Source: Rhodothermales bacterium (GTDB lineage: Bacteria; Bacteroidota; Rhodothermia; Rhodothermales; UBA10348). From it: a stretch of DNA of 64,000 bases. A program made the translations under genes and the position numbers. The notes under the pieces were generated by a model that saw only the letters and a program-made list of their open reading frames with translations, had not been told where the DNA came from and ran no database searches. Positions 4,738 to 44,532 of the stretch are shown one piece after another. Location of the stretch: positions 124,001 to 188,000 of the forward strand of contig JAVJVN010000004.1 in assembly GCA_040221055.1 (NCBI GenBank). The letters run 5' to 3'. How positions within the stretch are numbered: position 1 is the first letter of the stretch; each line of letters begins with the position of its first letter.

Positions 4738-4745
4738 AGTAGCTT

Positions 4746-4750
4746 CTCCT
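4746..4750 (-). promoter_or_regulatory. Shine-Dalgarno AGGAG deciding the rpsU GTG start
   Basis: The minus strand reads AGGAG, then seven bases, then GTG at 4737. A strong Shine-Dalgarno is uncommon in this window and supports the short bS21 start. Confidence 0.75.
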
Positions 4751-4780
4751 ATGGATCTGTTTTTCAAAAGGCACAGAAAG

Positions 4781-4788
4781 GAAATATA
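4781..4788 (-). promoter_or_regulatory. Candidate -7 box for rpsU
   Basis: The minus strand reads TATATTTC in the 80-base rpsU/rdgB spacer, seven of eight matches to the Bacteroidota TAnnTTTG box. It is about 44 bases upstream of the GTG start. No clear -33 TTG at ideal spacing is seen, so this is tentative. Confidence 0.4.
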
Positions 4789-4817
4789 ACCCGAATGGAG
4801 CGCAATAATCAAGAGAC

Positions 4818-5426: not shown

Positions 5427-5926
5427 TTGCCCTTGTCCAACGTGTGAAAGAGGCCCGCGTGGAGATTGTGGAGGGGGAGACAGCGCGCGAATCCGGACGG
5501 ATTGGCCCTGGCCTGCTCGTCCTGCTGGGCGTACACACCACCGATACCGTCGACCAGGCCGAGTGGCTGGCCCGGAAATGTGCCCGACTCCGCATTTTTC
5601 CGGACGAGGAAGGCAAGATGAACCGCTCCCTGATTGACGTCAGGGGCCAGGCGCTGGTCGTGTCGCAGTTCACGCTTTACGGCAACGCGTCCAAGGGAAA
5701 TCGCCCGTCCTTCGTGGAGTCCGCCCCGCCGGAGACGGCAGCGCCCCTGTACAATACCTTCTGCCGATTCCTGTCACGGGAATCGGGGCAGCCCGTTCCT
5801 ACCGGCGAGTTCGGTGCCATGATGGATGTCCACCTGGTGAACGACGGCCCGGTAACCCTCTGGATTGAGAAACGTGCCGACGACTCCACGGTAGAAATGG
5901 ATTCCTACCCGCCCAACCAGCCTTGA
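5423..5926 (+). CDS. dtd: D-aminoacyl-tRNA deacylase
   Basis: The protein begins [15 protein letters not shown], the usual DTD N-terminus. It holds both active-site motifs: [17 protein letters not shown] (SQFTLY block) and [10 protein letters not shown] (Gly-cisPro block). DTD removes D-amino acids, and glycine mischarged on tRNA-Ala, from tRNAs. At 167 residues it is about 20 longer than usual, with an extra polar tail after the GPVT motif ([18 protein letters not shown]). The start at 5423 overlaps the rdgB stop. Upstream in-frame codons lie inside rdgB and are unlikely starts. Confidence 0.96.
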
Positions 5927-5933
5927 ACGCTCC

Positions 5934-7622
5934 ATGACCCTTCGCTTGCCCCTCCTGTTCGCCACCCTATTCGTTACCGTGCTGTTCGCCGGATGCACGT
6001 CGGACAGGACCGACGGGGGTGCCGACCAGCCGCTGCCCTCCTTCATCCTGACCGATGCAACCATCTACACGTCCAATCCGGCGCACCCAACAGCCGAGGC
6101 CATGGCTGTCGTTGAAGGGCGGATTGCTGCCGTGGGCCTGCGGGACGAGGTGGTCGCGACGTGGCCTGACCTGGAAATCCGGAGTGCGGGAGGACAGACC
6201 GTCATTCCGGGTATCATCGATGCGCACGCCCATCTTCGGAATCTCACGGAACTGAACCTGATTGCCAACCTTGTGGGGACGGGCAGCATTGACGACATCA
6301 TTGCCCGGCTTCGCGAAAAGGAAGCCGAACTCGGACCCGGCGACTGGTTGCAGGGCCGCGGATGGGACCAGAACGATTGGGACGTCAAGGAATTCCCGAC
6401 GCGCCATGATTTGGATGCCGCATTTCCGGACCGGCCCGTTTGGCTGGAGCGGATTGACGGACACGCCATGTGGGCCAACACGGCCGCCATCCGCGCCGCA
6501 TCGGACGATCTGTTCCGTTCAGCGGCCGTGCCCGAGGGAGGTGAACTGTTCCGCGAGCCGGATGGCGCAGCCAGTGGTGTGTTCATTGACGATGCAGAGC
6601 ATCTCATCAATCCTGTCGTGCCCGCCTTCACAGACGTCGCGCTCGACGAAGCGTTTGCCGAGGCCCTCTCCGAGACCAACCGGTATGGCATTACCGCGGT
6701 GCACGAGGCCGGCGTCAATCTGGACAACATTGACCGGTTCCGCCGCTTTGCCGACGCGGGTGACCTGACGGTCCGCATCTATGCCATGGTCGAGCCGGGC
6801 GAGACCTTCGACACGTACTGCAACAACCCCTACACGCGGGAGGATGACCTGCTGACCATCCAGTCCGTGAAGATCTACCTGGACGGTGCGTTGGGAAGCC
6901 GCGGTGCGCTCATGTTGGACGAATATTCGGATGCGCCCGGTGTTCATGGTCTGCTCCGCACGCAGCCGGATGAATACCGCGAACTGGTGGACCGGGCGCT
7001 TGCGTGCGGCTACCAGATCAACTCGCATGCCATTGGGGACGGCGCCAACCGGCTGGTCCTGGATACCTACGAGGCGGCCGGCACGACCCCGGAAGGGCGG
7101 CATCGCAACGAGCACGCGCAGATCGTGGCGTTGTCCGATCTGGAGCGGTTCGCGGAACTCGGCGTCATCGCGTCCATGCAGCCTACCCATGCCACCAGCG
7201 ACATGTACTGGGCGGAGGATCGCGTGGGCGCACACCGGATTGAGGGGGGGTATGCGTGGCGCACCCTGTTGGACTCCGGCACCCACTTGGCCTTCGGATC
7301 GGACTTCCCGGTGGAACGCGTGGACCCCATGCTGGGCTTCTTCGCAAGCATAACGCGGCAGGATGACCAGCTCTGGCCGGAAGGCGGCTGGCACGCAGAC
7401 GAGACCCTGACGCGGGAGGAAACGCTTACGGCCTTCACCCTCGGCGCGGCCTGGGCCGGATTCCAGGAAGAGGACCTTGGATCCATCGAGGTCGGCAAAT
7501 GGGCCGATTTCGTGGTGATGGATACGGATATCATGCAGGTGGCCGCGCCCGGTATCCTGGATGCGGATGTCGTGGCCACGTTCGTCGCCGGGCAAGCTGT
7601 CCATGGAGGTCTTCCCGAGTGA
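5934..7622 (+). CDS. Amidohydrolase-family lipoprotein (YtcJ-like)
   Basis: This 562-residue protein opens with a lipoprotein signal (hydrophobic core, then LFAGC at about residues 17-21), so it should be anchored in an envelope membrane. The body is an amidohydrolase of the YtcJ/Amidohydro_3 group. IPGIIDAHAHL supplies the first metal-binding HxH, HEAGVNL and SHAIGDGANRLVLD follow, and FGSDFPVERVDPM carries the late catalytic Asp. The family hydrolyses amide or ester bonds of unknown substrates. The gene sits seven bases after dtd, and its TGA overlaps the GTG start of moaA. No link between its substrate and the Moco genes is evident. Confidence 0.9.
   Translation: MTLRLPLLFATLFVTVLFAGCTSDRTDGGADQPLPSFILTDATIYTSNPAHPTAEAMAVVEGRIAAVGLRDEVVATWPDLEIRSAGGQTVIPGIIDAHAHLRNLTELNLIANLVGTGSIDDIIARLREKEAELGPGDWLQGRGWDQNDWDVKEFPTRHDLDAAFPDRPVWLERIDGHAMWANTAAIRAASDDLFRSAAVPEGGELFREPDGAASGVFIDDAEHLINPVVPAFTDVALDEAFAEALSETNRYGITAVHEAGVNLDNIDRFRRFADAGDLTVRIYAMVEPGETFDTYCNNPYTREDDLLTIQSVKIYLDGALGSRGALMLDEYSDAPGVHGLLRTQPDEYRELVDRALACGYQINSHAIGDGANRLVLDTYEAAGTTPEGRHRNEHAQIVALSDLERFAELGVIASMQPTHATSDMYWAEDRVGAHRIEGGYAWRTLLDSGTHLAFGSDFPVERVDPMLGFFASITRQDDQLWPEGGWHADETLTREETLTAFTLGAAWAGFQEEDLGSIEVGKWADFVVMDTDIMQVAAPGILDADVVATFVAGQAVHGGLPE
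7605..7610 (+). promoter_or_regulatory. Shine-Dalgarno GGAGGT for moaA
   Basis: GGAGGT lies eight bases before GTG 7619, inside the 3' end of the amidohydrolase gene. It supports the GTG start that overlaps the upstream TGA. Confidence 0.7.
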
Positions 7623-8605
7623 GCCATTTGGACGATTCATTCGGGCGGCGCCATACTTATCTCCGCATTTCCCTGACGGAGCGATGCAACCTGCGCTGTA
7701 CCTACTGCATGCCGGCCGAGGGAGTCGAGCTCAAACCGCGCACCCACCTGCTCACGTACGAGGAAATCCTGCGGCTGGCCTCCTTGTTCGCCGGTCTGGG
7801 CGTGAACAAGATCCGGCTGACGGGTGGCGAGCCGCTCATCCGCAAGGATGTGGATGCGCTGGTGGCGGAACTGGGACGCATCCCGGGTATCCGGACGCTG
7901 GCCATAACCACCAACGGGTTGCTCCTGGACCGGCACCTGCCCTCGCTGGCCGCAGGCGGCCTGAATCTCATCAATATCTCGCTCGACACCCTCCGCGAGG
8001 ACCGTTTCCTGACGATCACCCGGCGCCCTGGCCTGGACAAGGTGTTGGACGCCATTGACCTGGCGCTCGCCGCGGATGTCGGGCCGGTGAAGGTGAACTG
8101 CGTAGTAATGAAGGGCGTGAACGAAGATGAACTGGTGGATTTCGTCGCCTTCACCCGGGAGCGAGCGGTGGACGTCCGATTCATCGAGTACATGCCGTTC
8201 GGCGGCAATGGATGGAATGACGGCGACTTCCTGCCGTACGCCGACATGCTCGGGATCATCCGGGAGACCTTCCCCGACCTTTCGCCGGTCGACCTGGACG
8301 CCCATGAAACGGCCAAGTTGTGGGAAGTCCCGGGCTTTGCGGGTCGCGTGGGCTTCATCACCTCCATGAGCCGTAATTTCTGTGGAGGATGCAACCGGCT
8401 TCGACTGACGGCGGACGGCAGTCTGAAGGTGTGTCTCTTCGGCACCGCCGAGCTCAACCTCAGGGATCTCATGCGCGATGGTGTCACCGATGCGGAATTG
8501 ACGGAGGCCATACGGGATGCCCTCAGTCGCAAGAAGGCCAGTCACGCCGGCATGCACGAATTGGCCCGGGGCGACAATCGTCCCATGATCCTCATCGGGG
8601 GATGA
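7619..8605 (+). CDS. moaA: GTP 3',8-cyclase MoaA
   Basis: This radical-SAM enzyme catalyses the first step of molybdenum cofactor synthesis, rearranging GTP to 3',8-cyclo-7,8-dihydro-GTP. From the GTG start the protein has 328 residues. The N-terminal cluster motif CNLRCTYC places cysteines at 23, 27 and 30, and LTGGEPLIRKD follows. The second, C-terminal cluster is CGGCNRLRLTADGSLKVC. The protein ends in the essential double Gly (MILIGG). The start was chosen because SFGRRHTYLRISLTERC begins immediately after it and a GGAGGT precedes it. moaC follows after 31 bases. Confidence 0.96.
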   Translation: MSHLDDSFGRRHTYLRISLTERCNLRCTYCMPAEGVELKPRTHLLTYEEILRLASLFAGLGVNKIRLTGGEPLIRKDVDALVAELGRIPGIRTLAITTNGLLLDRHLPSLAAGGLNLINISLDTLREDRFLTITRRPGLDKVLDAIDLALAADVGPVKVNCVVMKGVNEDELVDFVAFTRERAVDVRFIEYMPFGGNGWNDGDFLPYADMLGIIRETFPDLSPVDLDAHETAKLWEVPGFAGRVGFITSMSRNFCGGCNRLRLTADGSLKVCLFGTAELNLRDLMRDGVTDAELTEAIRDALSRKKASHAGMHELARGDNRPMILIGG

Positions 8606-8636
8606 ACCGCACCGATGTCCGGACGTTAAGTACGCC

Positions 8637-9119
8637 ATGAACACATTCACCCATGTCCACCCCGAAGGCGGCGTCACGATGGTTGACGTGTCGGCCAAGC
8701 CCGACACGGTCCGAACGGCCGTCGCCGTGGGCCGGGTCGTCCTTGGCGAACAGGCATACGCGCAGGTCCGGGACAACACGGTCCACAAGGGCGACGTGCT
8801 GTCCATCGCCCAGATTGCGGGCATCATGGGCGCCAAGGAGACCAGCCGGCTCATCCCGCTCTGCCACCAGGTCACGCTGCAGGGTGTGGACGTGGAATTC
8901 GAACTGGACGAGCCGGAAGCCGCTCTCCGTGTGAGGGCCTACGCCAAGTCCAAGGGCCCGACAGGCGTCGAAATGGAGGCACTCACCGCCGTGTCGGTGG
9001 CGTGCCTGACCGTCTATGACATGTGCAAGTCGATTTCGAAAGAGCTCATCATAGACGACATCCACCTGATCGCCAAATCCGGCGGCCAGAGTGGCGACTA
9101 CAGAAAACAAACCGGTTGA
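8637..9119 (+). CDS. moaC: Cyclic pyranopterin monophosphate synthase MoaC
   Basis: MoaC converts MoaA's product to cyclic pyranopterin monophosphate. The 160-residue protein contains MVDVSAKPDTVRTAVA, KGDVLSIAQIAGIMGAKETS, LIPLCHQVTLQGVDVEFEL and GVEMEALTAVSVACLTVYDMCK. Together these are diagnostic of the family and include the catalytic Asp-Met-Cys-Lys region. Length is normal. It sits between moaA and floA in the same operon (six bases to floA). No moaB, moaD, moaE or mogA is visible in the window. Confidence 0.97.
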   Translation: MNTFTHVHPEGGVTMVDVSAKPDTVRTAVAVGRVVLGEQAYAQVRDNTVHKGDVLSIAQIAGIMGAKETSRLIPLCHQVTLQGVDVEFELDEPEAALRVRAYAKSKGPTGVEMEALTAVSVACLTVYDMCKSISKELIIDDIHLIAKSGGQSGDYRKQTG

Positions 9120-9125
9120 TTCACC

Positions 9126-10115
9126 ATGGGAGATCCCTTCGCAGCAGGCAGTGTCCTCATTATCGGATTGGTCCTTCTTGGACTGATCATCTTCCTGTAC
9201 TTCGTGCCCCTCGGGCTCTGGGTGACGGCCTATTTCTCGGGCGTCCGCCTGAAACTCATGCGGGACCTGGTCGGCATGCGGCTCCGGAAGGTGCCCCCGG
9301 CAGCCATCGTGAAGCCCCTGATTACCGCCCACAAAGCCGGTATTTACCTGGATCCTCCCCAGCTTGAAGCCCACTTCCTGGCCGGTGGCCATGTCCAGAA
9401 GGTGGTCAATGCGCTGATCTCGGCCGACAAGGCCAGCATCGATCTGACGTTCGAGCGGGCAACGGCCATCGACCTGGCCGGTCGTGACGTATTCGAAGCC
9501 GTCCAGGTATCGGTCAACCCGAAGGTCATCCAGACACCTGCCGTTTCGGCCGTCGCCAAGGACGGCATCCAGGTCCGGGCCATAGCCCGCGTGACCGTCC
9601 GGGCCAACATCGAGCGCCTGGTTGGCGGTGCCGGAGAGGAGACCATCATGGCCCGCGTCGGGGAAGGCATCGTGTCCACCATCGGCTCGGCGTCCAGCCA
9701 CAAGGAAGTGCTGGAGAATCCCGATTCCATTTCCAAGGTCGTGTTGGCCAAGGGTCTCGATTCGGGAACGGCGTTCGACATCCTGTCCATCGATATCGCC
9801 GACGTGGATGTGGGCGAGAACATCGGTGCCAAGCTGCAGACCGATCAGGCGGAAGCAGACCTCAAGGTGGCCCGTGCGAAAGCGGAAGAACGTCGCGCCG
9901 CAGCCGTGGCCCGCGAACAGGAAATGCGTGCGTCGGTCGAGGAGCAGCGGGCCAACGTGGTCGCGGCCGAGGCCGAGGTGCCCAAGGCCATGGCCGAAGC
10001 GTTCCGCAGTGGACGCCTGGGCGTCATGGACTATTACAACATGAAGAACGTGGAAGCGGACACCTCCATGCGCCGCTCCATCAGTGGGACCGAAGAACGG
10101 AAGAAGGACATTTGA
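9126..10115 (+). CDS. floA: Flotillin-like protein FloA (SPFH scaffold)
   Basis: The 329-residue protein starts with a membrane hairpin ([31 protein letters not shown]). The SPFH domain follows with [26 protein letters not shown], and a coiled-coil Ala/Glu-rich segment with repeated [13 protein letters not shown] lies at about 245-295. This is the arrangement of FloA/YqfA, which assembles in functional membrane microdomains and affects fluidity. It is co-transcribed behind moaC. Its TGA overlaps the TTG of the next gene. A PspA operon lies 4 kb downstream on the other strand, making a membrane-maintenance neighbourhood. Confidence 0.95.
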
Positions 10116-10636
10116 CCGAACCTCGAACCCATCACCAGGCGGCCGTATTTGCCGGGCTCGGTGTGCTTTCGGCCACCCAGGAGATTGCCGGTGCTGTCAT
10201 GGCCGGCATGCCCGAGGCCGACCCCGAGCTGGTCGCTGAAGAAACGTTGTGCCTGCTTGCCGTGGTCTCAGCCCGTGTAGCCCAGGCCACGGGCGGGGCC
10301 GATGAGACCTTCGCCCATGCCATATTGGCCGCCCCGTTCCTTTATCGGGATTACCTGGTGGGCACGGCCATGCTGGAATCGGGCGATCAGGCGACGGCTG
10401 AATTGGGCGCCGTCATCGGAGCCCGGTTGGAGCGGAAAATGGCGTTCTATGTCGCCCATTTTCCGCCTGGAGCGCATCCGCCCCCCCCGCAGATACGCGA
10501 GAAGATGCTGCTGTGGATGGGGCGGATCTCACCTCCGAAAATGCCATCGGGGCCGGAAGACCGCCTGGATGCCTCGGGGGTCGTGGACCGCGTCGTCCAC
10601 CATGGCCGGTTGATGTCGACCCTGCTGAAAGCATAG
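10112..10636 (+). CDS. Unknown protein coupled to floA
   Basis: I do not recognise this 174-residue protein. It appears to start at a TTG that overlaps the floA stop (TTGA), which suggests coupled translation. The first half is helical and Ala/Glu-rich with modest hydrophobicity ([20 protein letters not shown], then [21 protein letters not shown]). A proline cluster ([10 protein letters not shown]) follows, and then a C-terminal segment with [12 protein letters not shown]. No signal peptide or clear transmembrane helix is seen. Its position suggests a FloA-related or cytosolic accessory role, but that is inference from context only. The stop is 21 bases before the convergent CNNM gene end. 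Confidence 0.7.
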
Positions 10637-10657
10637 CCAGACCGCACGCTCCGCTTC

Positions 10658-11959
10658 TCAGCGGCCGTTCTTCTTCTCGTCCTGTACGAGTTCGCTGGCC
10701 CGCGTAATCCGCACCATGTCGACGCGGTTGGTGGACGCGGCCAGCACCTGGAACCGGTAGCCGTCCAACTCGAATTCGTCGCGACGGGCGGGTATGGTGC
10801 CCAGCCTCGCCAGGATGAACCCGGCTATGGTCTCGTAGTCTCCGTCATCGGAGAGCTGAATGGGCGTCCGCTCGCGAAGTTCGTCGATATCCACCCGGCC
10901 GCTGGCAATGACCGTCCTGTCGTCCACCACGCGCAACACATGGTCCTCGTGGTCGAACTCGTCCTGGATATCGCCGAACAACTCCTCAAGCAAATCTTCG
11001 GTGGTAACCAGACCTGCCGTCCCGCCATACTCATCGATGACGATGGCAATCGACGTCCCGGTAGCCAGGAATTCCCGGAGCAGGTCCTTCGACATCTTGG
11101 TTTCAGGAACGAAGTTCACGGAGCGCAGGATGTCCGGCACGTGCTGTGGCTTGTCGAACAGGTCATACGCGAACACAATACCCACGATGTTGTCAATGTT
11201 CTCCCGGTAGACGGGCAGCTTGGAGTGCCCGGACTTGACAAATGTGGCTTGCAGCTCCGGAATGGAGGTTCTCTCTTCCACCGCCACCAGATCCGTTCGC
11301 GGAACCATGGATTCCTTGACGCGCACCGATCCCATGGCAAACACGTTGGAAAGCAAGGTGCTCTCTTCCTCATCCAGGTCGAGATCCCCTGCCCGCTTGC
11401 TCTCCTCGATCATGAGTTCGAAATCCCGCCGCATGAATTGCGACAAGGATTCGGCGTCGGTTTTCATGAGCCGCATGAGCCCTGCCGCAGACCATCGCGC
11501 GAGGGAGATCAGCGGGAGCAACACGAAATAACAGACGCGAAGCGGAACGGCCAACACGAAAACAGCCCGGTTCGCGAATTCCCGCATGAACGACTTCGGA
11601 AGGATTTCCCCGAACAGCAGGACGACCATCGCCGCAATAATGGTCTGCGCGACCAGGACAGCCACTTCCAACCCCGCGGAATCGGGCACCATGAACGACG
11701 AGAACGACTGCGTCAGCGGAGCTTCCAGCCAGAAAGCCGCCAGCGAAGAGTAGATGACCAGTGCCAGGTTGTTGCCCACCAGGGTCGTGGTCAACAGGGC
11801 GGCCGGATCTTCCAGGAATCTCGAAACCAGGGCACCCGCCCGTCCCCCTCTCCGAGCCGAAACTTCTACCCGGAGCCGGTTCGCGGCCACGAACGCAATT
11901 TCCGATCCGGAAAAGAACGCGCTGAGCAGCAGGGTCAGGGCAATGAACAGGAGGATCAT
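10658..11959 (-). CDS. CNNM/CorC-type transporter (hemolysin C family)
   Basis: This 433-residue membrane protein has the CNNM (DUF21) transmembrane domain with LLLSAFFSGSEIAFVAANRLR at its N-terminus, where the SGSE signature is diagnostic. Two CBS domains follow (about 200-320, including VPRTDLVAVEERTS and IVIDEYGGTAGLVTTEDLLEEL). A C-terminal CorC_HlyC domain comes last, with GDYETIAGFILARLGTIP. Members transport Mg2+ or Co2+ or modulate such transport, with CBS domains sensing adenine nucleotides. It is the last gene of the minus-strand operon that begins with pspA, nine bases after the enoyl-CoA hydratase. Confidence 0.94.
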   Translation of the reverse strand: MILLFIALTLLLSAFFSGSEIAFVAANRLRVEVSARRGGRAGALVSRFLEDPAALLTTTLVGNNLALVIYSSLAAFWLEAPLTQSFSSFMVPDSAGLEVAVLVAQTIIAAMVVLLFGEILPKSFMREFANRAVFVLAVPLRVCYFVLLPLISLARWSAAGLMRLMKTDAESLSQFMRRDFELMIEESKRAGDLDLDEEESTLLSNVFAMGSVRVKESMVPRTDLVAVEERTSIPELQATFVKSGHSKLPVYRENIDNIVGIVFAYDLFDKPQHVPDILRSVNFVPETKMSKDLLREFLATGTSIAIVIDEYGGTAGLVTTEDLLEELFGDIQDEFDHEDHVLRVVDDRTVIASGRVDIDELRERTPIQLSDDGDYETIAGFILARLGTIPARRDEFELDGYRFQVLAASTNRVDMVRITRASELVQDEKKNGR

Positions 11960-23851: not shown

Positions 23852-26560
23852 CTACTTGAGGTCGCGCGGGGCCAACCGGTTCAGTTCCTCGAACCAGTTC
23901 ACGACCAACCAGATCTCCCCACGCTCTCCTTGACTTTCGGGATACGCCACCCAGACATTCCCTCCGGCATCCACATCGAAATAAAGAGCCCCGTCAGTTC
24001 CGGTCTGAAAACCGGACGGCCCCGTGAACACCACTTCCGACGGCCCGAGTTGACGGAACGTCGGCTCGGTCGTAACCGGTGTGCGGGTAATCGTGCCCTG
24101 GTATTCGGAAAAGATGGCGGATCCGTCAGGAGACCATTTCGGCATGCAGCCCTGTTCCACGATCTGGATGGGTTCGCCGGTTCCGTCCAGCGACACGACC
24201 TCCAGGGATCCGCACCACGAACTTCCACCCCGCAGGAAGGCCACGTAGGTGCCGTCAGGTGACAGTGTGGGCTTGGTTAAATTTTCTGCCACATCCAGCA
24301 CCAGTCGCGTGGACTCCGTCTGGAAATCGTGGACGTACAAATCCAGCGGGCCGTTGTTGAATACCATGTACCGACCATCGGGGGTAAGCGCCTGATCCCC
24401 GATGTCCGGGATGTCGGGAAGAATGACCTCATTGGCACCCGACCCGTCGGCATTGCGCCGGAGAATGACCCAACCGTCGGCGCGTTGTTGATCGAAGTAG
24501 ACGGTCCGGTCGCCGGCTCCCCAGACGGGCAAGTCATACCCGCCTTCCCGGGTCAGGCGGGTCACGGTTTCCCGCTCCAGGTCCATGATGTAGACGTCGG
24601 CTTGTTGCCGAAGCTCGGGAATGGCGCTTACCACCACGCGACTGCCGTCGCCGGATATGCTGAACTCGGACGACATGGCCCCCGGAAGGGTAGCCTGACG
24701 CTCGGGATTTCCGGTGGACGAAATCCGATAGAGCGTGCTGGGCACGGACTGGCCGGACTGATCGCCCAGTTCCTCATACACCAATACGCCGGAGGGAGAA
24801 ACCACAGCCGGGAACGAGCGGGCACCCAGGGCGACGGTCGCGCCCTCCACGGCGCCGGTTTTCAGGTTGATGGGCGTGGCGTAGGTTTGCGGGGACGGAG
24901 CGCTCAGTGCTTCCTGGATGGTCAGGAGATGGCCCGTCGGCGTAATGGCGTGTGCATAGACCGACGGCAAGTATTCTGTGGCGTCTTTGTCGTCTTCCAG
25001 CTTGGTCACCCGGACGGGCACAAGTCCCGGTGCCAGTGTGGTGTACAGCGAGAACGATCCTCCCGGGGCGGTAACCAGATTGAACAGCCCCGTCGGGCCG
25101 TCCAACGTATCCAGATCGGCAATTTTCGTGACCCGTCCGTTCTCGTCCACGCCCGAGAGTCCCCACGTGCTGTCGGTGAAGACAAAGCCACCCGCGGCCG
25201 TGAACCCGGGCGACATCAGGCGATTGGTTTCGCCACCAATGACCGGCGCGGCAACACCACCCGAAACGGGTGCGCGCCACCAACGGGCCTCGGTATTGTT
25301 GAAGAAATACACCCAGCGCCCGTCCGGTGAAACGTGGGGCCGGACGCCATTGGCGGAGCGTTCCACTTCCCGGATGGTGGCCGTGGCCAGGTCGTAGGCC
25401 AATATTCGTGTCGGATTGACGGCCGCGTAGAAGACAAACCGGTTGTCCGGCGTGATGTCGGCACGAAGGGGCGACCCGGCATCGGGCAGGTGCAGCCGGG
25501 CCCGGAGGACGGCGCTGGAGGTGTTCGAGTCCGTACCGACCGGACCCACCTTCCATCCAATGGCCAGGCCGGCAACGAGCAGGATGGGGAGCGCGGCCCA
25601 GATCCAGACAGGCAGGCGGGACGCTGCAGGGGCCGATGCGCCGCGCGGGATGCTGGTCTCGATGGCGGATGCGGGCGCGGCCGAGACACCGGACGGTGAC
25701 GCAACGCCCGACATGGCCGGCACACTTCGACGGGAAACGCCGCTGGCCCCGATGGCCAGCGCCTTCAGGTCCGCAATAATGCCGGACGCCGTCTGATACC
25801 GGATTTCCTTGTCCTTGGCGAGCGCCTTGAACACAATGCGCTCCAGTTCCATGGGGACGCCTGTCCGGACCGCCGTCAGCGGCTCGGGCATTTCATTCAG
25901 GATGCCGTAGACGACCGCTTGCTCATATTCCCCGCCGAACGGCAGGCGTCCGGCCACCATCTCGTAAATGACGGTTCCCAGCGAGTACAGATCGGTGCGA
26001 CCGTCCACTTCATCGCCCCGGGCCTGCTCGGGACTCATGTAGGCCACCGTGCCGAGGGTGGAGCCCATCCGCGTGAGCTGTGTGGACTGCTGCGTCTTGG
26101 CCAGCCCGAAATCCAGCACCTTGACAGCCCCGTCACCGGCCAACATGATGTTGGCGCTCTTGATGTCCCGGTGCACGATATCCTTGGCGTGCGCCGCGCC
26201 CAACGCGCCTGCAATCTGGAGGGCAATCCGGATGACGTCCTCGAGTTTCATGGGCCCCCGCTTCACCTCCTCCGAAAGCATGGGACCGTCAATGAATTCC
26301 ATGGCGATGAACGGGGTGCCGTCCACCTCATCGATCTCATAGATCTGTGCGATGTGGGGGTGGTTCAGCGCCGCTGCCGCTTTGGCTTCCCGGTAGAAGC
26401 GGGCCCGGTCGTCATCGGTCGACAGCGCTCCGGGAGGCAGCACCTTGATGGCGACCATTCGGTCCAGCTTGGTGTCCTGGGCCTTGTAGACAACGCCCAT
26501 GCCTCCACGGCCCAATTCGTGTAGGATCTGGTAGTGGGAAAGCGTACTTCCGGTCATCAT
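23852..26560 (-). CDS. Transmembrane Ser/Thr protein kinase with a TolB-like propeller
   Basis: The 902-residue protein starts with a complete Hanks-type kinase. The glycine loop is GRGGMGVVYKAQ, Lys39 sits in VAIK, HRDIKSANIM has the catalytic Asp132, DFG is at 150-152, and a GTVAYMSPEQ activation segment follows. A Ser/Ala-rich linker leads to one transmembrane helix (317-336, PVWIWAALPILLVAGLAIGW). About 560 extracytoplasmic residues with repeated PDGR/PDGTYVAF units form a WD40-like (PD40/TolB) propeller. It probably senses an envelope ligand and phosphorylates cytosolic targets. Tandem ATGs at 26560/26557 are the likely start; a TTG at 26584 is also possible. It follows an ECF sigma gene by 58 bases. 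Confidence 0.93.
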   Translation of the reverse strand: MMTGSTLSHYQILHELGRGGMGVVYKAQDTKLDRMVAIKVLPPGALSTDDDRARFYREAKAAAALNHPHIAQIYEIDEVDGTPFIAMEFIDGPMLSEEVKRGPMKLEDVIRIALQIAGALGAAHAKDIVHRDIKSANIMLAGDGAVKVLDFGLAKTQQSTQLTRMGSTLGTVAYMSPEQARGDEVDGRTDLYSLGTVIYEMVAGRLPFGGEYEQAVVYGILNEMPEPLTAVRTGVPMELERIVFKALAKDKEIRYQTASGIIADLKALAIGASGVSRRSVPAMSGVASPSGVSAAPASAIETSIPRGASAPAASRLPVWIWAALPILLVAGLAIGWKVGPVGTDSNTSSAVLRARLHLPDAGSPLRADITPDNRFVFYAAVNPTRILAYDLATATIREVERSANGVRPHVSPDGRWVYFFNNTEARWWRAPVSGGVAAPVIGGETNRLMSPGFTAAGGFVFTDSTWGLSGVDENGRVTKIADLDTLDGPTGLFNLVTAPGGSFSLYTTLAPGLVPVRVTKLEDDKDATEYLPSVYAHAITPTGHLLTIQEALSAPSPQTYATPINLKTGAVEGATVALGARSFPAVVSPSGVLVYEELGDQSGQSVPSTLYRISSTGNPERQATLPGAMSSEFSISGDGSRVVVSAIPELRQQADVYIMDLERETVTRLTREGGYDLPVWGAGDRTVYFDQQRADGWVILRRNADGSGANEVILPDIPDIGDQALTPDGRYMVFNNGPLDLYVHDFQTESTRLVLDVAENLTKPTLSPDGTYVAFLRGGSSWCGSLEVVSLDGTGEPIQIVEQGCMPKWSPDGSAIFSEYQGTITRTPVTTEPTFRQLGPSEVVFTGPSGFQTGTDGALYFDVDAGGNVWVAYPESQGERGEIWLVVNWFEELNRLAPRDLK

Positions 26561-26618
26561 GTCAGGGGGTGGGTGGGAAAGCAAAGATCCGCCACCGAAC
26601 CCGGATGTGCAATCCGCC

Positions 26619-37050: not shown

Positions 37051-38310
37051 TCAGTAGCCGTAGATCGAAAATTCGTCCTTCCGCATGTGCAGGGAGAGGA
37101 CAATGGCCAGCAAGGCGGTATTGGCCAACAGGGCCGATCCTCCGTAGGAGATGAACGGCAACGGAATCCCGATGACCGGCAACAGGGACGTGGCCATCCC
37201 GACATTGATGAACGTGTGGACCAGGTAGATCCCGACCGCGCCGGAGGCCACCATGACGCCGAACGGATGCTTCATCTGCCCACCCAGGTGCACCAACCGG
37301 ACCAGGAATGCCATCAAAAGCAGCAATACCAGTGCCGCCCCCAGGAAGCCGAATTCCTCTCCGATGACGGAAAACACGAAATCGGTCGACTGCTCCGGCA
37401 CATACGATCCCTGGGTCTGTGTGCCCTGCATGAATCCTTTGCCGTTCCAGCCACCCGAGCCAATGGCCGCCATGGATTGCAGTTGATGGAAGCCGGCGTT
37501 GTCCCTGAATTCCGCGGCTCCGGGATTCGTGAAGGAAAGCACACGGGCGACCTGGTATGGCTGCAGGACGTTCATGATGGCGAAGGACGCCACAGCAGCC
37601 GTGCCACCCGAGAAAAGAGCGGCAACGCCCGCCATCCGCCGGTCCTTCGTGCGCCACCACATGAAACCGGTGAACACCAACGCAAAAATGACGGCCGCCG
37701 GCAGGTTCACGATGGCCAGGTACCCCGCTACGGCCGGAGCAATCATGATGAGCAGCAGGTTGAATTCCAGGCCGCTCCAGAACAGGGCGATCGGAATGAG
37801 CCCGAAAAACACAAGTGCCGTTCCCGTGTCGTTCTGGAGGATGATGAGCACCGCCGGCAACAGGATGATGCCTACAATGCTGAGTCCAACGTCCAGGCCC
37901 ATCGTCTTGGGGCGCCGCATACCCACCAACTGGGCCAGGGCCAGGACCGTACCCACCTTGGCGAGCTCGGAAACCTGGAATTGAATGGGACCCAGGACGA
38001 TCCAGCTCTTTGCCCCGTTGATCTCCCGGCCTACCAGGAGCGATGCCAAAAGAAGCAGCACCGTAATCGCATAGATGGGAAAGGCCGCCATCTGGTAAAA
38101 ACGGATGGGCAGGAGGAGGGCGATCACCAGGCCCACGGACGAAATACCCAACCACATGACCTGGCGGTCAAAGTTCTGGCGTGGGCTCGACGTGAACAGA
38201 TCGGCGGCCGCACCGTGCGTTGTGGAATAGATGGCCAGCAATCCGGATACCACCAGGACGAGCCAAAGCGCGAGACTCATGGCATCCAGCCGCGTGTACC
38301 AGGGCTTCAT
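37051..38310 (-). CDS. rodA: Peptidoglycan glycosyltransferase RodA
   Basis: This 419-residue SEDS protein polymerises glycan strands during side-wall growth. Ten membrane helices are evident. Landmark motifs are AKSWIVLGPIQFQVSELAKVG, LLPAVLIILQNDTGTALVFF, AIGSGGWNGKGFMQGTQTQGSYVPEQSTDFVFSVIGEEFGFLG (segment about 295-340, with the catalytic-region Asp/Glu) and GIPLPFISYGGSALL near the C-terminus. It overlaps the upstream mrdA stop by four bases (ATGA), the usual PBP2-RodA pair. mreBCD are not adjacent: the gene upstream of mrdA is divergent. Confidence 0.97.
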   Translation of the reverse strand: MKPWYTRLDAMSLALWLVLVVSGLLAIYSTTHGAAADLFTSSPRQNFDRQVMWLGISSVGLVIALLLPIRFYQMAAFPIYAITVLLLLASLLVGREINGAKSWIVLGPIQFQVSELAKVGTVLALAQLVGMRRPKTMGLDVGLSIVGIILLPAVLIILQNDTGTALVFFGLIPIALFWSGLEFNLLLIMIAPAVAGYLAIVNLPAAVIFALVFTGFMWWRTKDRRMAGVAALFSGGTAAVASFAIMNVLQPYQVARVLSFTNPGAAEFRDNAGFHQLQSMAAIGSGGWNGKGFMQGTQTQGSYVPEQSTDFVFSVIGEEFGFLGAALVLLLLMAFLVRLVHLGGQMKHPFGVMVASGAVGIYLVHTFINVGMATSLLPVIGIPLPFISYGGSALLANTALLAIVLSLHMRKDEFSIYGY

Positions 38311-40151
38311 GGCGCCGTTCTCCCGGGCGATTGCTCCCCGATCGGCTGGCTCCGGCGCTGCAATACCTGATTCCAGAGTGGCTGCCGGCCTTGCATTTCG
38401 ATGTGACCCTTGAGGTACTGCTCCATCAAGAACATGCCCACGATGCCCGCATTGCCGGAACCCGATCCGCCATTCTCGACCATGACGGCCACGGCAATCT
38501 GCGGATTGTCAGCCGGAGCGTATCCGATGAAAACCGAGTCGTCCTCCCCACGGGGGTTCTGTGCCGTTCCGGTCTTGCCTGCCGACGGTATGCCCGGTAT
38601 GATCAACCAGGGCGTTTTCTCCGCGATCATCCGTCGCATGCCGGTACGCACGAGTTCCAGGTAAGCCGGATTCACGTTCAGGGGCTCGGGGGATGCGAGG
38701 TCGAGCCGGGTCTCCTCACCCGTTTCCGGCTGACGGGCATGGTCGAGCAGGTGGGGGGTAATGAGCGTTCCGCCATTGGCCAGCGCCGAGACGTACCGGA
38801 CCAGTTGGATGGGGGTCACCAGCAGCTCTCCCTGGCCGACCCCCAGATTCATGGCCTGGCCCTCATTCCACCGGTTCACGCCCAGCCGTTCGTTGTAATA
38901 GGTCGAATCGGGTATGAGTCCGGTACTGACTTCCGACTGGGAAAGATCGATGGCCGCCCGCTGCTCGAACCCGAACGCACGGGCGTATTTGTCCAACGTG
39001 TTCACGTCCATCCGGCGCATCAGCTCGAAAAAAAACGTATTGCAGGACTGCTTGATGGCCTCTACCACTCCGATGGTGCCGTGCGTATCCATGCATTTGA
39101 AGATGCGTCCTCCCCCCCGCGGGTGATAGCCCGGGCAGTTGAACCGGAAGCCCTCATCGATGACACCCTCCTGCAAGGCCATGATGGCTATGAGGGGCTT
39201 GAATGTAGATCCGGGCATGAAGGCCGACTGCGTAACGCGGTTGAACAGGGGCTTGTCTGCCGACGTCATCAGGTAATCCCACTGTTCGGGATTGACCGAG
39301 CCGGTGAACACGTCCAACTTGTAGTCCGGCGCCGAGTGGAAGGCCAGCACACCGCCCGTATTGACATCCATGGCGATGACCGCACCCCGCTTGTCCGTGA
39401 ACAGCGACTCGGCGACGGCTTGCGTACCGGCATCGATGGTCAGGTACAGGTCCTTCCCGCTCAGCGGCGGTCGGTCTTCCCGTCCGCCCAGGTAATCCTG
39501 GACCACCTGCCCGCGTATGTTGACCATCTTGAAGGCACTCCCCACCGTGCCCCGGACTTCCGTCTCGTACTGACGCTCCAGCCCGGCGCTCCCTATCTGG
39601 TCTCCCGGGCGGTATCCCCGTGACCGCCAGGTCTCCAGGTCGCTCCGATTGATTTCCCGGACGTAGCCGAGCACATGCGACAACTCGGCCTCGTCGGTGT
39701 ACCGGCGTTTCTGGAACACTTCATGGGTGATTCCCGGCAATTCATGCCGGTGCTCGAGCACCCGGGACAGCATCCGGAACGGAACATCCACGGCCAGGGG
39801 ACTCGGACGGAATACACTCCACTCCCGGGCGGCCCGCACCCGGGCCGTGACGACGCTGTCCGGGACTTCCAGGAAGGACGCCAGGACCGGGACCGTGGTC
39901 GTATCGAAATAGGTGGGGGTCACCAGCAGGTTGTAGCCGGATGTGTTGTCCACCAACAACGTGCCGTTGCGGTCGAAGAACATGCCGCGTGCCGGCAATT
40001 GCCGTCGCTCCTTGACGGCATTGCTCCTCGACTCCCCGCTGTGGTCTGCGTAGTCCACGATCTGCAGTTTGCCCAGCCGCAGTACTAGCACGCCTACCAA
40101 CAGCACAATGAGCAACGAAAATATGCGAACGCGCAGGCGGGCGTCATCCAT
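38307..40151 (-). CDS. mrdA: Penicillin-binding protein 2
   Basis: The 614-residue monofunctional class B transpeptidase works with RodA. One N-terminal membrane anchor (IFSLLIVLLVGVLVLRLG) precedes the dimerisation domain (RGMFFDRNGTLLVDN, ELSHVLGYVREI, GSAGLERQYETEVRG). The penicillin-binding domain has SxxK as PGSTFKPL (Ser about 315), SxN as SCN in AIKQSCNTFFFELM, and KTG at about 526 (SAGKTGTAQNP). ATG 40151 is preferred to an in-frame start 60 bases upstream. A 165-base divergent spacer separates it from the outer-membrane peptidase gene. Confidence 0.96.
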   Translation of the reverse strand: MDDARLRVRIFSLLIVLLVGVLVLRLGKLQIVDYADHSGESRSNAVKERRQLPARGMFFDRNGTLLVDNTSGYNLLVTPTYFDTTTVPVLASFLEVPDSVVTARVRAAREWSVFRPSPLAVDVPFRMLSRVLEHRHELPGITHEVFQKRRYTDEAELSHVLGYVREINRSDLETWRSRGYRPGDQIGSAGLERQYETEVRGTVGSAFKMVNIRGQVVQDYLGGREDRPPLSGKDLYLTIDAGTQAVAESLFTDKRGAVIAMDVNTGGVLAFHSAPDYKLDVFTGSVNPEQWDYLMTSADKPLFNRVTQSAFMPGSTFKPLIAIMALQEGVIDEGFRFNCPGYHPRGGGRIFKCMDTHGTIGVVEAIKQSCNTFFFELMRRMDVNTLDKYARAFGFEQRAAIDLSQSEVSTGLIPDSTYYNERLGVNRWNEGQAMNLGVGQGELLVTPIQLVRYVSALANGGTLITPHLLDHARQPETGEETRLDLASPEPLNVNPAYLELVRTGMRRMIAEKTPWLIIPGIPSAGKTGTAQNPRGEDDSVFIGYAPADNPQIAVAVMVENGGSGSGNAGIVGMFLMEQYLKGHIEMQGRQPLWNQVLQRRSQPIGEQSPGRTAP

Positions 40152-40316
40152 GGTGGCAAGGGGCCCCGTTGGGGCGTTTCCGGTTACGAATGGGGCCGGA
40201 AATGCAACCATTCAGCATTCAGGCGCATTTCAGGCAAACCAATGTGTGGACCCATCGTTAGTACCCGACGACACCCACGTGGTTTCGGAAGGCATTTATT
40301 ACTATCCGCGGGCACC

Positions 40317-43300
40317 ATGGCCAAGAGATCGACGACCTTTATCGGGCTTTCCTGCGCTTTTTTCGGCGTTTTGTTTTTTGCCGTGGCCGCCCCGGCCGCG
40401 GGTCAGTATTTCGGCAGGAACAAGGTCCAGTACGACAATTTCGACTTCAAATCGTTCAGGACGGATCATTTCGAAATCTACTTCTACCCCGAGGCGCGCG
40501 TGGCTGTCCAGGATGCGTCCCGGATGGCCGAACGGTGGTATCAGCGGCATTCGCGCACGTTCCTGAGGGAGTTCTATGAACGCAAGCCCATCATCCTGTA
40601 TGCCAACGACGCCGACTTCCATCAGACAAATGCCATAAGCGGGTCGCTCGGAGAAGGCACCGGCGGGGTGACCGAATCCCTGAAGGAGCGGGTCATCATG
40701 CCCCTCACCGGCAGCTATTGGGACACCGACCACGTGCTGGGACACGAGCTGGTCCACAGTTTCCAGTACGATATCGCCCTCTCCCGCACGGATTCGGTCC
40801 GATTCTCGTTCCAGTATGTTCCGCTTTGGCTGGTAGAAGGCATGGCGGAATACCTGTCCGTCGGACGGCGCGATACCCACACGGCCATGTGGATGCGCGA
40901 CGCCGCCCTGCGGGACGACCTGCCGACCATCGAGCAGATCACGAAGGACATGAGTTACTTCCCGTATCGGTACGGGCAGGCCTACATGGCCTACGTGGGA
41001 GGCAAATACGGGGATGCCGCGGTCGCCAACCTGTTCAAACTGAGCGGCCGGGTGGGCGTCGATTCGTCCTTCGTGTACACGCTCGGCATTACGGCCGATT
41101 CGCTATCCAACGAATGGATCCAGACCGTCAAGGACACCTACCTGCCCCTGACCGAGGGCCGTACGCCGGCTGACAGCGCGGGCCGCAAGGTCCTGGCATC
41201 GGATATCGACGCGGGAGACATGAATATCTCCCCCATGATTTCTCCGGACGGGCAGTACGTGGCGTTCCTGTCGGAGAAGGATCTCTTCAACATCAACCTG
41301 TTCATTGCCGACGCGAACACCGGAAAGGTCGTCAAGAAGCTGAAGTCCACGGCCCGGAATTCGCATTTCGACCAGATCCGGTTCATCTCATCGTCCGGGT
41401 CCTGGTCGCCCGACGGCAAGCGCTTCGCCTTCATCACGTTCGTCCAGGGCGACAACGAAATCTCCATCCTGGACTGGTCCAAAGGCTCCATCGAGCGACG
41501 GATTTCCGTGGACGGCGTGACCGCCATCACCAATCTGGCGTGGTCCCCGGACGGCGATCATCTGGCGTTTTCGGGCATGAACGGGGGCATTTCCGACCTG
41601 TACGTGCTGGACCTGCGTACGTCTGCCGTGGAGCAGTTGACCAACGACCGGTACGCCGATCTGCAGCCGGCCTGGTCCCCGGACGGGATCCACCTCGCCT
41701 TCACCACGGACCGGGGCGAGGAAGGCACGGACTTCGCCACGTTGTCCTACGGCGCCGAGCGCGTGGGTATCATCAACACGGAGACGCTCGACATCCGGAT
41801 CGTGCGACCCTTCGACGGAATGCATCACAATCCCCAGTTCACGCCGGACGGACAGAACATCCTGTTCATTTCCGACCACGACGGGTTCAAGGACATCTAT
41901 CGATTGAACCTCGAGACGGAAGACGTATTCCGCGTGACCCATCTGCAGACCGGGGTTTCGGGCATTACCAAGATGTCGCCCGCCATGTCCGTGGCGCAGC
42001 AGAGCGGTCGCATGATGTTCACGGTATTCGGCGACAGCAAATACACGGTGTTCTCCAAGGATCTGGATGAACTGGAAGGCGAACCCTATGTGCCGGGACC
42101 GCAGGCCGACTACCAGCTTGCTGCGACGCTCCCGCCCAACCGGGACGCCAATGAAGGCTTGGTCGGCAACTATCTGAACGATCCGCTCAGCGGGTTGCCG
42201 GAGGACCGGGACTACTCGGAACTGGCGTACAGCCCCCGCCTCAAGCTGGATTACGTGGCCCCGCCGTCGGTGGGCGTTCAGGCCGGTGGCGTGTACGGTT
42301 CAGGGGTCGTGGGTGGTGTCGGCTTTTTCTTCAGCGACATGCTGGGCAACCAGAACCTGACCCTGATTGCACAGGCCAACGGCACGTTCAAGGACATCGG
42401 CGCCCAGGCTGCCTACCTGAACCGCAAGAACCGGCTGAACTGGGGAGGTCAAGTGGGCCATATCCCACTCCTGTTCGGGTCGTCGTTCGTCGGTCCGAAT
42501 GTCATTGACCCGGAAACGGGCCTGCCATCGCAGACCATCCAACAAATCCGCCAGCGCATTTACGTGGACCAGCTCCAGGGCGTGGCCGTGTATCCGTTCA
42601 CCACCACCCGGCGGGTCGAGCTGACCTCAGGGTTCACGCGGTACGGATTCGACTACGAGGTGGACACCTACTACTTCAGCCAATTCGGTGTCCGTCGCGA
42701 AAGGACGAGTCTGAGTGACCAGGAGCCGGACCCCATCTATTTCGCCCAGGCCGGCCTGGCACTGGTCAGCGACTACTCCTTCTTCGGCTTCACATCCCCC
42801 ATCCGGGGTGGCCGATCGCGTTTTGAAATCGCGCCGTTCGTGGGCTCACAGACCTTCATCCGTCTCCAGGCCGACTATCGCCGGTATTTCAATCTGAACC
42901 CGTTCACGTTTGCCATCCGTGGCCTCCACGTGGGAAACTACGGTGCAACGGCATCCAGTCAGAACGACATTTTCACCCAGGAATATCTGGGATACGCCAA
43001 CTCGTTCGGCTTCGTCCGGGGCTACTCCTTCACGTCGTTTGAAGGCTTCGGGGAGTGTACGGCCACCGCGGACGGCCGATGCGCCGAGGAAGACCGCCTC
43101 TTCGGAACGCGCATGGCGCTCATGAGCGTGGAAACCCGGATTCCGCTGTTCGGCACGGAGCAGTATGGTCTCATCAACTTTCCGTACCTTCCCACCGAAG
43201 TCTCATTCTTCGCAGATGGTGGCGTGGCATGGACGAAGGACGACCTTCCGGTCCTGAAATTCGAAACCGACCCGACGCCGGAGCGGATTCCTGTTTTCTC

Positions 43301-43424
43301 GGCCGGGGTGTCCACCCGATTCAACATGTTCGGGTTCTCCGTGATCGAGATCTTCTACGCCAAACCGTTCCAGCGGCCTGGAAAGGGGGCCCATTTCGGG
43401 TTCCAGATCATCCCGGGCTGGTAA
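40317..43424 (+). CDS. Outer-membrane metallopeptidase-like/propeller/beta-barrel fusion
   Basis: The 1035-residue protein has a signal peptide (FFGVLFFAVAAPAAGQ). A gluzincin-type peptidase-like domain follows, with HELVH at 143-147 and a downstream Glu178 in VEGMAEYLS. At about 305-590 a TolB/PD40 propeller shows repeats such as ISPDGQYVAFLSE, WSPDGKRFAF, WSPDGDHLAFSG and FTPDGQNILFISD. From about 640 to the end a BamA-like surface-antigen barrel is present (SPRLKLDYVAPPSVGVQAGG, FRGYSF-type loop as FVRGYSFTSF, final FGFQIIPGW). It should sit in the outer membrane with the propeller in the periplasm. The role could be proteolysis, assembly or sensing; both zinc-site elements are intact. Start ATG 40317 opens the signal peptide. 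Confidence 0.9.
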   Translation: MAKRSTTFIGLSCAFFGVLFFAVAAPAAGQYFGRNKVQYDNFDFKSFRTDHFEIYFYPEARVAVQDASRMAERWYQRHSRTFLREFYERKPIILYANDADFHQTNAISGSLGEGTGGVTESLKERVIMPLTGSYWDTDHVLGHELVHSFQYDIALSRTDSVRFSFQYVPLWLVEGMAEYLSVGRRDTHTAMWMRDAALRDDLPTIEQITKDMSYFPYRYGQAYMAYVGGKYGDAAVANLFKLSGRVGVDSSFVYTLGITADSLSNEWIQTVKDTYLPLTEGRTPADSAGRKVLASDIDAGDMNISPMISPDGQYVAFLSEKDLFNINLFIADANTGKVVKKLKSTARNSHFDQIRFISSSGSWSPDGKRFAFITFVQGDNEISILDWSKGSIERRISVDGVTAITNLAWSPDGDHLAFSGMNGGISDLYVLDLRTSAVEQLTNDRYADLQPAWSPDGIHLAFTTDRGEEGTDFATLSYGAERVGIINTETLDIRIVRPFDGMHHNPQFTPDGQNILFISDHDGFKDIYRLNLETEDVFRVTHLQTGVSGITKMSPAMSVAQQSGRMMFTVFGDSKYTVFSKDLDELEGEPYVPGPQADYQLAATLPPNRDANEGLVGNYLNDPLSGLPEDRDYSELAYSPRLKLDYVAPPSVGVQAGGVYGSGVVGGVGFFFSDMLGNQNLTLIAQANGTFKDIGAQAAYLNRKNRLNWGGQVGHIPLLFGSSFVGPNVIDPETGLPSQTIQQIRQRIYVDQLQGVAVYPFTTTRRVELTSGFTRYGFDYEVDTYYFSQFGVRRERTSLSDQEPDPIYFAQAGLALVSDYSFFGFTSPIRGGRSRFEIAPFVGSQTFIRLQADYRRYFNLNPFTFAIRGLHVGNYGATASSQNDIFTQEYLGYANSFGFVRGYSFTSFEGFGECTATADGRCAEEDRLFGTRMALMSVETRIPLFGTEQYGLINFPYLPTEVSFFADGGVAWTKDDLPVLKFETDPTPERIPVFSAGVSTRFNMFGFSVIEIFYAKPFQRPGKGAHFGFQIIPGW

Positions 43425-43431
43425 GCCCCTG

Positions 43432-44532
43432 ATGTATACCGCCCTTCGCCCCCTGCTTTTTGCCGTCGGACCCGAAACGGCCCACACGTTCGCGGCGCTC
43501 GCCGCGCGGACCGCACAACGCGTGACCCCGTTCCTGCTCGACCGGATGTTCGAGTATGCCCATCCTGCACTGTCGCAGGACCTGTTCGGTCTGACCTTCA
43601 CCAATCCGGTGGGACTGGCGGCCGGTTTTGACAAGAATGCCCGCCTGGTCCCCTTTTTCCGCCACGCCGGTGCCGGATTCGTGGAAATCGGGTCGGTCAC
43701 GGCCCGGAAGAGCCGGGGCAATCCGCGCCCGCGGCTGTTCCGCCTGCCGGAAGACGAGGCCCTCATCAACCGGATGGGCTTGGGCAACCACGGGGCCCGG
43801 CGGATTGCCCCGCGCGTGGCCCGTCAGGCCGGACGCCGAACGTGGCCCCTGGGCGTAAACATTGCCAAGACCCACGATCCGCACATCATGGGTGACGATG
43901 CCCTGGACGACTTCGTCCAATCTTTCCGGCTGCTGGCACCCGTCGCAGACTACATCACACTGAACGTATCGTGTCCCAACACGGCCGAGGGCAAGACCTT
44001 CGAGGACCCGAATGCCTTCGACGACCTGCTTGCGGCCATCATGCGTTCTGCCGCCGACCTGAAACGGCGCCCCCCCATCCTGGTCAAGTTTTCCCCGCCC
44101 GACACCGAACGGTTCGTGCTGGACAGCTTGTTCGACGAACTCCTCCTGGTGGCGCAGGCTCACGGAGTGGATGGGTTCGTGGCCACGAACACCGCCCCGG
44201 ACCGGGAGGGACTGACCGCGGATCCCATCCGTATTGCGTCGATGGGCAAGGGCGGACTCAGCGGCCGTCCGATAGCGCGGCGTTCAGACGGGCTCGTCCG
44301 CTATATCCATCGAAAGACCGGCGGCAAGACACCCATAGTGGGTGTCGGTGGTATCGATTCAGCAGAATCGGCGTACCGGAAGATCAAAGCCGGTGCGAGT
44401 CTGGTGCAGATATACACCGGTTTGGTTTATCATGGACCCGGCCTCTTCCGCTCCATAAAGGAAGGACTGGTCCGACTGCTTGAGGAGGACGGACATTCGT
44501 CCATCAAACATGCCGTTGGAGTCGAGGCCTGA
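43432..44532 (+). CDS. pyrD: Dihydroorotate dehydrogenase (quinone), class 2
   Basis: The 366-residue enzyme oxidises dihydroorotate to orotate in pyrimidine synthesis and passes electrons to quinone. Class 2 is shown by the N-terminal amphipathic membrane-binding helices (MYTALRPLLFAVGPETAHTF) and by NPVGLAAGFDKNARLVP. FVEIGSVTARKSRGNPRPRLFRL, the LNVSCPNTAEGK stretch with the catalytic Ser region, LVKFSPP, and GVGGIDSAESAYRKIKAGASLVQIYTGLVYHGP (FMN phosphate site) complete the match. It begins eight bases after the outer-membrane protein gene and precedes an acyl-CoA ligase. Confidence 0.97.
   Translation: MYTALRPLLFAVGPETAHTFAALAARTAQRVTPFLLDRMFEYAHPALSQDLFGLTFTNPVGLAAGFDKNARLVPFFRHAGAGFVEIGSVTARKSRGNPRPRLFRLPEDEALINRMGLGNHGARRIAPRVARQAGRRTWPLGVNIAKTHDPHIMGDDALDDFVQSFRLLAPVADYITLNVSCPNTAEGKTFEDPNAFDDLLAAIMRSAADLKRRPPILVKFSPPDTERFVLDSLFDELLLVAQAHGVDGFVATNTAPDREGLTADPIRIASMGKGGLSGRPIARRSDGLVRYIHRKTGGKTPIVGVGGIDSAESAYRKIKAGASLVQIYTGLVYHGPGLFRSIKEGLVRLLEEDGHSSIKHAVGVEA

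Follow-up and report, generated by a model that had tools for sequence, protein, structure and literature searches.

What might a bacterium use a protein for that joins a protease-like domain, a propeller and a membrane barrel in a single chain? The question is raised by a gene at positions 40317-43424, on the forward strand, of a 64,000-nucleotide stretch of DNA from a Rhodothermales bacterium (NCBI GenBank assembly GCA_040221055.1, contig JAVJVN010000004.1, positions 124,001 to 188,000), referred to as the window in the following. A first-pass annotation, made from the sequence alone, had described its product as a signal peptide, a zinc-peptidase-like domain, a TolB-like propeller and a BamA-like barrel, in this order. 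The order is borne out by profile matches, by an AlphaFold2 prediction and by fold matches to TolB and BamA. As to its role, we tentatively propose a zinc peptidase that is anchored in the outer membrane by its Omp85 scaffold, faces the periplasm and takes part in the upkeep of outer membrane proteins, a reading whose chances we place slightly below even.

Domain architecture of the protein

The features of the gene are given below; row counts refer to our widest alignment of 124 rows, in which some genes are repeated (L002/L068/L137, L004/L008 and L109/L178).

40317-43424, forward: whole gene, 1035 residues; signal peptide, zinc-peptidase-like domain, TolB-like propeller, Omp85-type barrel
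40317-40403, forward: signal peptide (residues 1-29), read by eye; probable cleavage after Gly29
40407-41171, forward: gluzincin-like peptidase domain (residues about 31-285), predicted alpha/beta fold; Peptidase_MA_2 at 90-272 and BSP at 137-197, both below cut-off
40743-40757, forward: HELVH zinc motif (residues 143-147); H143, E144 and H147 kept in 118/124 rows
40836-40838, forward: Glu174, probable third zinc ligand, within WLVEGMAEY; kept in the same 118/124 rows
40965-40967, forward: Tyr217, candidate catalytic tyrosine; kept in 118/118 zinc-site rows
41184-42086, forward: TolB-like beta-propeller (residues about 290-590); PD40 repeats, TolB fold match
42087-42245, forward: linker (residues 591-643, 53 residues), no POTRA recognised; least conserved part
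42246-43421, forward: Omp85-type beta-barrel (residues 644-1035); BamA 8xnb fold match, TIGR03303 at 5.9e-7
43014-43025, forward: VRGY, Omp85 loop-6 type motif (residues 900-903); long loop, then five predicted strands

The open reading frame translates without an internal stop. Another ATG lies upstream in frame at 40242; the start at 40317 gives an N-terminus that, by eye, resembles a signal peptide, running from MAKRSTT to AAPAAG and on, past the probable cleavage site, into QY. In Pfam searches at E <= 10, the propeller is the clearest element, with PD40 at 6.7e-27 over five stretches (four of them at E <= 0.01). Peptidase_MA_2 (6.7e-5, 23.2 bits against a cut-off of 32.4) and BSP (1.7e-4, 21.9 bits against 23.8) match below their cut-offs. 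The NCBIfam models for TolB (3.7e-37, 128.2 bits against an equivalog cut-off of 343.15) and BamA (TIGR03303, over residues 835-1020, 28.2 bits against 297.15) are recognised far below theirs. Across the 17 members of our alignment A1, PD40 is found in all 17 at E <= 0.01, BSP in 15, Peptidase_MA_2 in 13 and the Omp85 model PF01103 in one, which is not the window's protein.

For structure prediction, AlphaFold2 was run on 17 sequences, namely this protein and 16 relatives from named contigs, and returned a model with a predicted local distance difference test score (pLDDT) of 72.9 and a predicted template modelling score (pTM) of 0.61; a single-sequence prediction (pLDDT 34.5) was discarded. 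With VIA-align, residues 313-589 of the model superimpose on TolB (1c5k) with a Z score of 24.7 and a root-mean-square deviation (rmsd) of 2.5 over 243 residues, and residues 644-1035 on Deinococcus BamA (8xnb) with a Z score of 23.7 and an rmsd of 4.2 over 317 residues. The C-terminal barrel, for which structure prediction had been named as the check, is thus predicted. From residue 643 onward, the model has 17 strand segments, compatible with a 16-stranded barrel. The linker before it is modelled as two short helices and one strand and lacks the POTRA pattern; likewise, no POTRA is found among the Pfam matches up to E 10, a range in which the search filters drop most matches above 0.1.

Conservation of the zinc site and kinship of the barrel

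The first-pass annotation had noted that both elements of the zinc site are intact and 30 residues apart, and so they are, counted from the glutamate of HELVH (E144) to E174. An HExxH motif followed downstream by a glutamate is the hallmark of gluzincin peptidases (clan MA). In the model, HELVH falls into a predicted helix (134-155) and E174 into the next one (170-182), the order expected of gluzincins. The six rows that do not retain H143, E144, H147 and E174 (L005, L006, L132, L135, L138 and L139) stem from PD40 proteins that have neither HExxH nor a peptidase domain, and G220 and W267 are, like Y217, invariant in all 118 others, which were selected by their zinc site. Mean identity to the query in peptidase, propeller and barrel is 79.5%, 66.9% and 63.5% for the nearest 48 rows, 54.1%, 47.6% and 44.6% for the next 26, and 38.1%, 32.0% and 29.3% for the next 41; for the last two rows it is 25.3%, 24.5% and, in one row only, 26.4%. 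In the three larger groups, conservation is therefore highest in the peptidase, which does not apply to the last, tiny one.

Since relatives occur in hundreds of genomes and the zinc site is kept in every peptidase-bearing row aligned, the observation is more than chance. In active zincins, the residue equivalent to E144 serves as the catalytic base and does not bind the metal. That the metal ligands and this glutamate are constant argues for a working enzyme. This upholds the earlier suggestion of a potentially active protease as far as the residues H143, E144, H147, E174 and Y217 are concerned, while its activity is predicted from sequence. Compared with solved structures, the peptidase alignment yielded marginal matches only (best E 0.026), and the structure matches listed for the model are propellers and barrels, so that the peptidase fold is barely tested by them.

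The home genome holds four further genes with HExxH, a later glutamate and PD40 repeats, which we denote C6 (L068), C12 (L003), C11 (L004) and C9 (L140). C6, C12 and C11 score above the cut-off of Peptidase_MA_2, to which C9 has no match, and the cut-off of PF01103 is exceeded by three of the four, namely C6 (44.3 bits against 24), C12 (48.7 bits) and C9. The full plan is thus supported by profiles in C6 and C12, which pass both; the barrel of C11 is unrecognised by profiles, and the peptidase of C9 rests on motifs and alignment.

These paralogues also bear on the nature of the barrel in the window's protein, which has no match to PF01103 in Pfam up to E 10. In profile comparisons, it aligns with the barrels of C6 and C12 at 97.9% and 98.8% probability, with those of C11 and C9 at 0.1%, and with four other Omp85-type proteins of the home genome at 0.2-2.5%. 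Loop 6 of Omp85 proteins carries an RGF or RGY motif five strands from the end, and we take VRGY at 900-903 to be its counterpart. Among the rows of the window's type that cover this column, the motif reads RGY, RGF or, once, RGL; rows of the C6 type differ here, and an LRGF lies further on in the C6 sequence. Both marks of the Omp85/TpsB superfamily, a membrane barrel and the RGF/RGY motif of loop 6, are hence present in the predicted barrel. By contrast, Omp85 as worded in passages of PMC11116518 comprises a barrel and at least one POTRA, and the latter is not recognised here. Altogether, the case for a barrel of the Omp85 type is good, though indirect, and runs through homology via C6 and C12 and the predicted fold.

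The home genome encodes a separate BamA equivalog (348.6 bits against the cut-off of 297.15). The protein is therefore an addition to BamA and not BamA itself, and a replacement of BamA by it is ruled out; it reaches neither the equivalog cut-off of BamA nor shows its POTRA array. No TolB above the curated cut-off is found in the home genome, though many PD40-type matches are present.

The idea of a singular fusion is not sustained by the home paralogues and the matches in all three phyla sampled. The genome search covered the home phylum and the phyla of two genomes, G242 (via L039, titled Gemmatimonadetes) and G243 (via L040, titled Fibrobacter sp.), named here after assembly titles, which for metagenomes may be wrong. 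Among relatives up to the order level, home genome included, all 60 genomes have a match at E <= 0.001; in three of them (G029, G043 and G053) diverged types but no gene of the window's type were seen. Of 198 genomes of the phylum that are at least 90% complete, 124 have a match at E <= 1e-20 and 74 do not, with best E values of merely 1e-22 to 1e-32 in seven of the 124. Matches are found in 60/61 genomes of the phylum of G242 and in 20/40 of that of G243, and one scan of genome contigs gave 15 close relatives. Many matches are confined to the N-terminal ~550 residues; the open frames that hold them are mostly some 940-1250 residues long, and the architecture was verified on the fetched loci. 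This distribution rules out a rare fusion or an assembly artefact. There is likewise no sign of a recent horizontal gain: the guanine-cytosine fraction, taken in kilobase bins, lies at 0.59-0.64 across the gene and at 0.61-0.66 in the inspected flanks, and gene order is stable.

A midpoint-rooted tree of the peptidase and propeller of the 118 zinc-site rows separates three groups, in which the rows from outside the phylum of L039 include those of L040's genome. The group of the window's type holds 24 rows of L039's phylum and 68 others (support 0.984), the C12-type group four such rows and seven others (0.997), and the C6-type group 12 rows, none of them from that phylum (0.935); C9 and C11 fall outside all three. 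As the first two groups both hold rows of L039's phylum, the genes of the window's type and of the C12 type look older than the phylum split. The family is old and widespread in the Bacteroidota and the two further groups sampled. In some lineages the main copy itself duplicates, given that copies of this type are multiple in the genomes of L035 and L036. Each of these two genomes has at least three places with such genes, and at L036 two copies stand in tandem (2801-6085 and 6512-9043).

Comparison with known systems and proposed role

Part of this architecture has been described before. A WD40-Omp85 subfamily, likened to a fusion of BamA and BamB, was reported in 2014 (Heinz and Lithgow, PMC4104836), and in it, as in the window's protein, a TolB-like propeller precedes a POTRA-less Omp85 barrel. 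In contrast to our protein, a peptidase is not mentioned there: no word beginning with 'peptidase' is found in the main text, as distinct from tables, figures and supplements. The members of that subfamily may overlap with the present family. Among the matches listed in the open-access literature, which mostly excludes subscription papers and preprints, there is no paper on a peptidase-propeller-Omp85 protein, PMC4104836 being the nearest. Term searches likewise found no such protein in passages of papers on the Bacteroidota barrel assembly machinery (BAM; PMC12611786, PMC12578637) and on TamL (PMC12045153).

Other systems share single traits. TolB is the best match of the propeller by sequence and fold. 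TolB itself occurs free in the periplasm, has an N-terminal domain of its own and lacks a barrel, whereas here the propeller is fused to a barrel and the equivalog cut-off is not reached. An enzyme domain on an Omp85 barrel is known from PlpD of Pseudomonas aeruginosa, whose patatin domain was once thought to be secreted and, according to passages of PMC11116518, stays periplasmic; its loss alters phospholipid levels. PlpD combines a patatin lipase with one POTRA, the marks of type Vd secretion, whereas our protein pairs a zinc peptidase with a propeller and has neither a patatin domain nor a POTRA among its Pfam matches up to E 10. In E. coli, passages of PMC13067283 describe BamB as a propeller on BamA and BepA as a zinc protease that works at BAM and breaks down stalled proteins, so that zinc protease, propeller and Omp85 barrel work together on outer membrane proteins as they might here. 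There, however, they are separate proteins, and BepA belongs to family M48; here they form one chain beside a separate BamA, with neither M48 nor TPR among the Pfam matches up to E 10. Nor do its matches in the same Pfam search include PF00149, which we take to be the calcineurin-like phosphoesterase family and not a zincin. This domain defines the Omp85 'Metallo' subfamily in the passages of PMC4104836, where it is termed a metalloprotease domain; like the window's protein, that subfamily joins a metal-dependent enzyme domain to the barrel, with a possible function in periplasmic quality control.

On this background, we infer zinc binding, proteolysis, a periplasmic side, substrates and a role as follows. 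The signal peptide, the TolB-like propeller and the short linker to the barrel suggest a periplasmic enzyme, and the precedent of PlpD, the BamB propeller on BamA and BepA at BAM suggest a role in the upkeep of outer membrane proteins. The Omp85-type barrel would anchor the peptidase and the neighbouring propeller on the periplasmic side. The propeller would dock substrates or envelope partners, which the peptidase would cut, while the barrel would keep the enzyme close to the inner leaflet and might itself engage the edge strands of barrel proteins that are misfolded or stalled. Such a protein would act like a fusion of proteobacterial BamB, BepA and an Omp85 barrel. The earlier idea that it mixes protein quality control with outer membrane assembly or secretion is a reasonable inference in this putative form; its 'pore', however, is not supported, given that PMC4104836 (main-text passages) describes the barrels of BamA and TamA as shut towards the outside.

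A more far-reaching version seems unlikely to us: a one-chain quality-control machine, ancestral to Bacteroidota, Gemmatimonadota and Fibrobacterota, in which the POTRA-less barrel would present stalled outer membrane proteins to its own peptidase through the propeller, the paralogues would serve different sets of clients, and the main copy would be coordinated with PBP2-RodA in the window's order. In the Bacteroidota and their relatives, the machinery that builds the outer membrane differs from the one in E. coli, and the clearing of failed outer membrane proteins is not met in the literature passages on this machinery. A widespread, multi-copy family with a constant zinc site fused to an Omp85 barrel is a concrete candidate for this task and, if confirmed in it, would be the second enzyme class on an Omp85 scaffold after the patatins.

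Gene neighbourhood and alternative readings

The genes next to the one described here are the following; the loci of the window's order are 24 of 30 stretches, one per genome, with second copies and paralogues (L063, L064, L068, L069, L070 and L072) left out.

38307-40211, reverse: PBP2-type transpeptidase, divergent, 105 bases away; 22/24 order loci
37051-38310, reverse: RodA-type protein; 20/24 order loci
43432-44532, forward: PyrD, dihydroorotate dehydrogenase, starting 7 bases past the stop; 21/24 order loci

All three are absent at L045; RodA is also absent at L046, L048 and L067 (the last two near contig ends), and PyrD at L047 and L053 (the latter at a contig end). L062 has a PBP2 that is not counted in the 22, as a long antisense frame masks it from the script. 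In a wider set of 28 loci, PBP2, RodA and PyrD are recognised in six, all from the window's order. In 5/13 loci of L039's phylum, a set of MlaD, ABC ATPase and MlaE adjoins the gene tail to tail (L039, at 5917-11811, L147, L150, L151 and L152; Pfam identity was checked for L039).

Several observations weigh against a periplasmic peptidase in outer membrane protein upkeep. The protein's own peptidase matches fall below the Pfam cut-offs, and a direct profile comparison of its barrel with the BamA of the home genome is not significant (2% probability). Several copies per genome suggest specialised substrates over one general job. Propellers of this phylum are not necessarily periplasmic, as the propeller subunit BamI of the Bacteroides BAM is extracellular in the passages of PMC12578637. 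Finally, the conserved neighbours act in the cell wall (PBP2, RodA) or are PyrD, with none of Bam or chaperone type, and the Mla genes hint at lipid rather than protein upkeep.

The extracellular subunit in Bacteroides would also suit a surface display, in which the barrel exports or holds peptidase and propeller outside, in the manner of type Vd, to digest external protein. We consider this improbable. The arrangement, enzyme first and Omp85-type barrel last, is that of PlpD, which was initially proposed to be secreted (passages of PMC4104836), and several related genes per genome would fit nutrient hydrolases. On the other hand, later work placed the PlpD domain in the periplasm and judged the export of a folded domain through the barrel unfavourable (passages of PMC11116518), some 560 residues of folded domains would need to cross, and wide conservation with stable neighbours within the order is unlike a variable nutrient hydrolase. 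The zinc site might also be structural or bind without cutting, so that the protein would be a scaffold; the weak peptidase profile matches would agree with this, and sequence alone cannot decide it, but E144 and Y217 are kept wherever the peptidase domain is present, and we hold this to be very unlikely.

The neighbourhood lends itself to two further readings. One would link elongation by PBP2-RodA to the outer membrane, with the propeller binding a wall partner (compare TolB-Pal) and the peptidase trimming it. The divergent PBP2 in nearly all order loci speaks for this, as does TolB being the closest propeller in a genome without a TolB above the curated cut-off. The linkage to PBP2, RodA and PyrD is lineage-bound, however, and lacking at the second copies of the window's type (L063 and L064); moreover, gene order can last without function, and PyrD is about as conserved as the others, so that we regard such a coupling as decidedly unlikely. 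The other reading, in which the protein would be an outer membrane scaffold for phospholipid homeostasis, comparable to PlpD, and its peptidase would act as a regulator, would draw on the Mla neighbours and on the altered phospholipid levels upon PlpD loss (passages of PMC11116518). Yet these genes are convergent, and none of the other loci among the 28, those of the window's order included, was seen to have the complete set; we think this highly improbable.

Elsewhere in the window, at 23852-26584 (L139), lies a gene for a protein with, by eye, a protein-kinase-like domain followed by PD40-type repeats.

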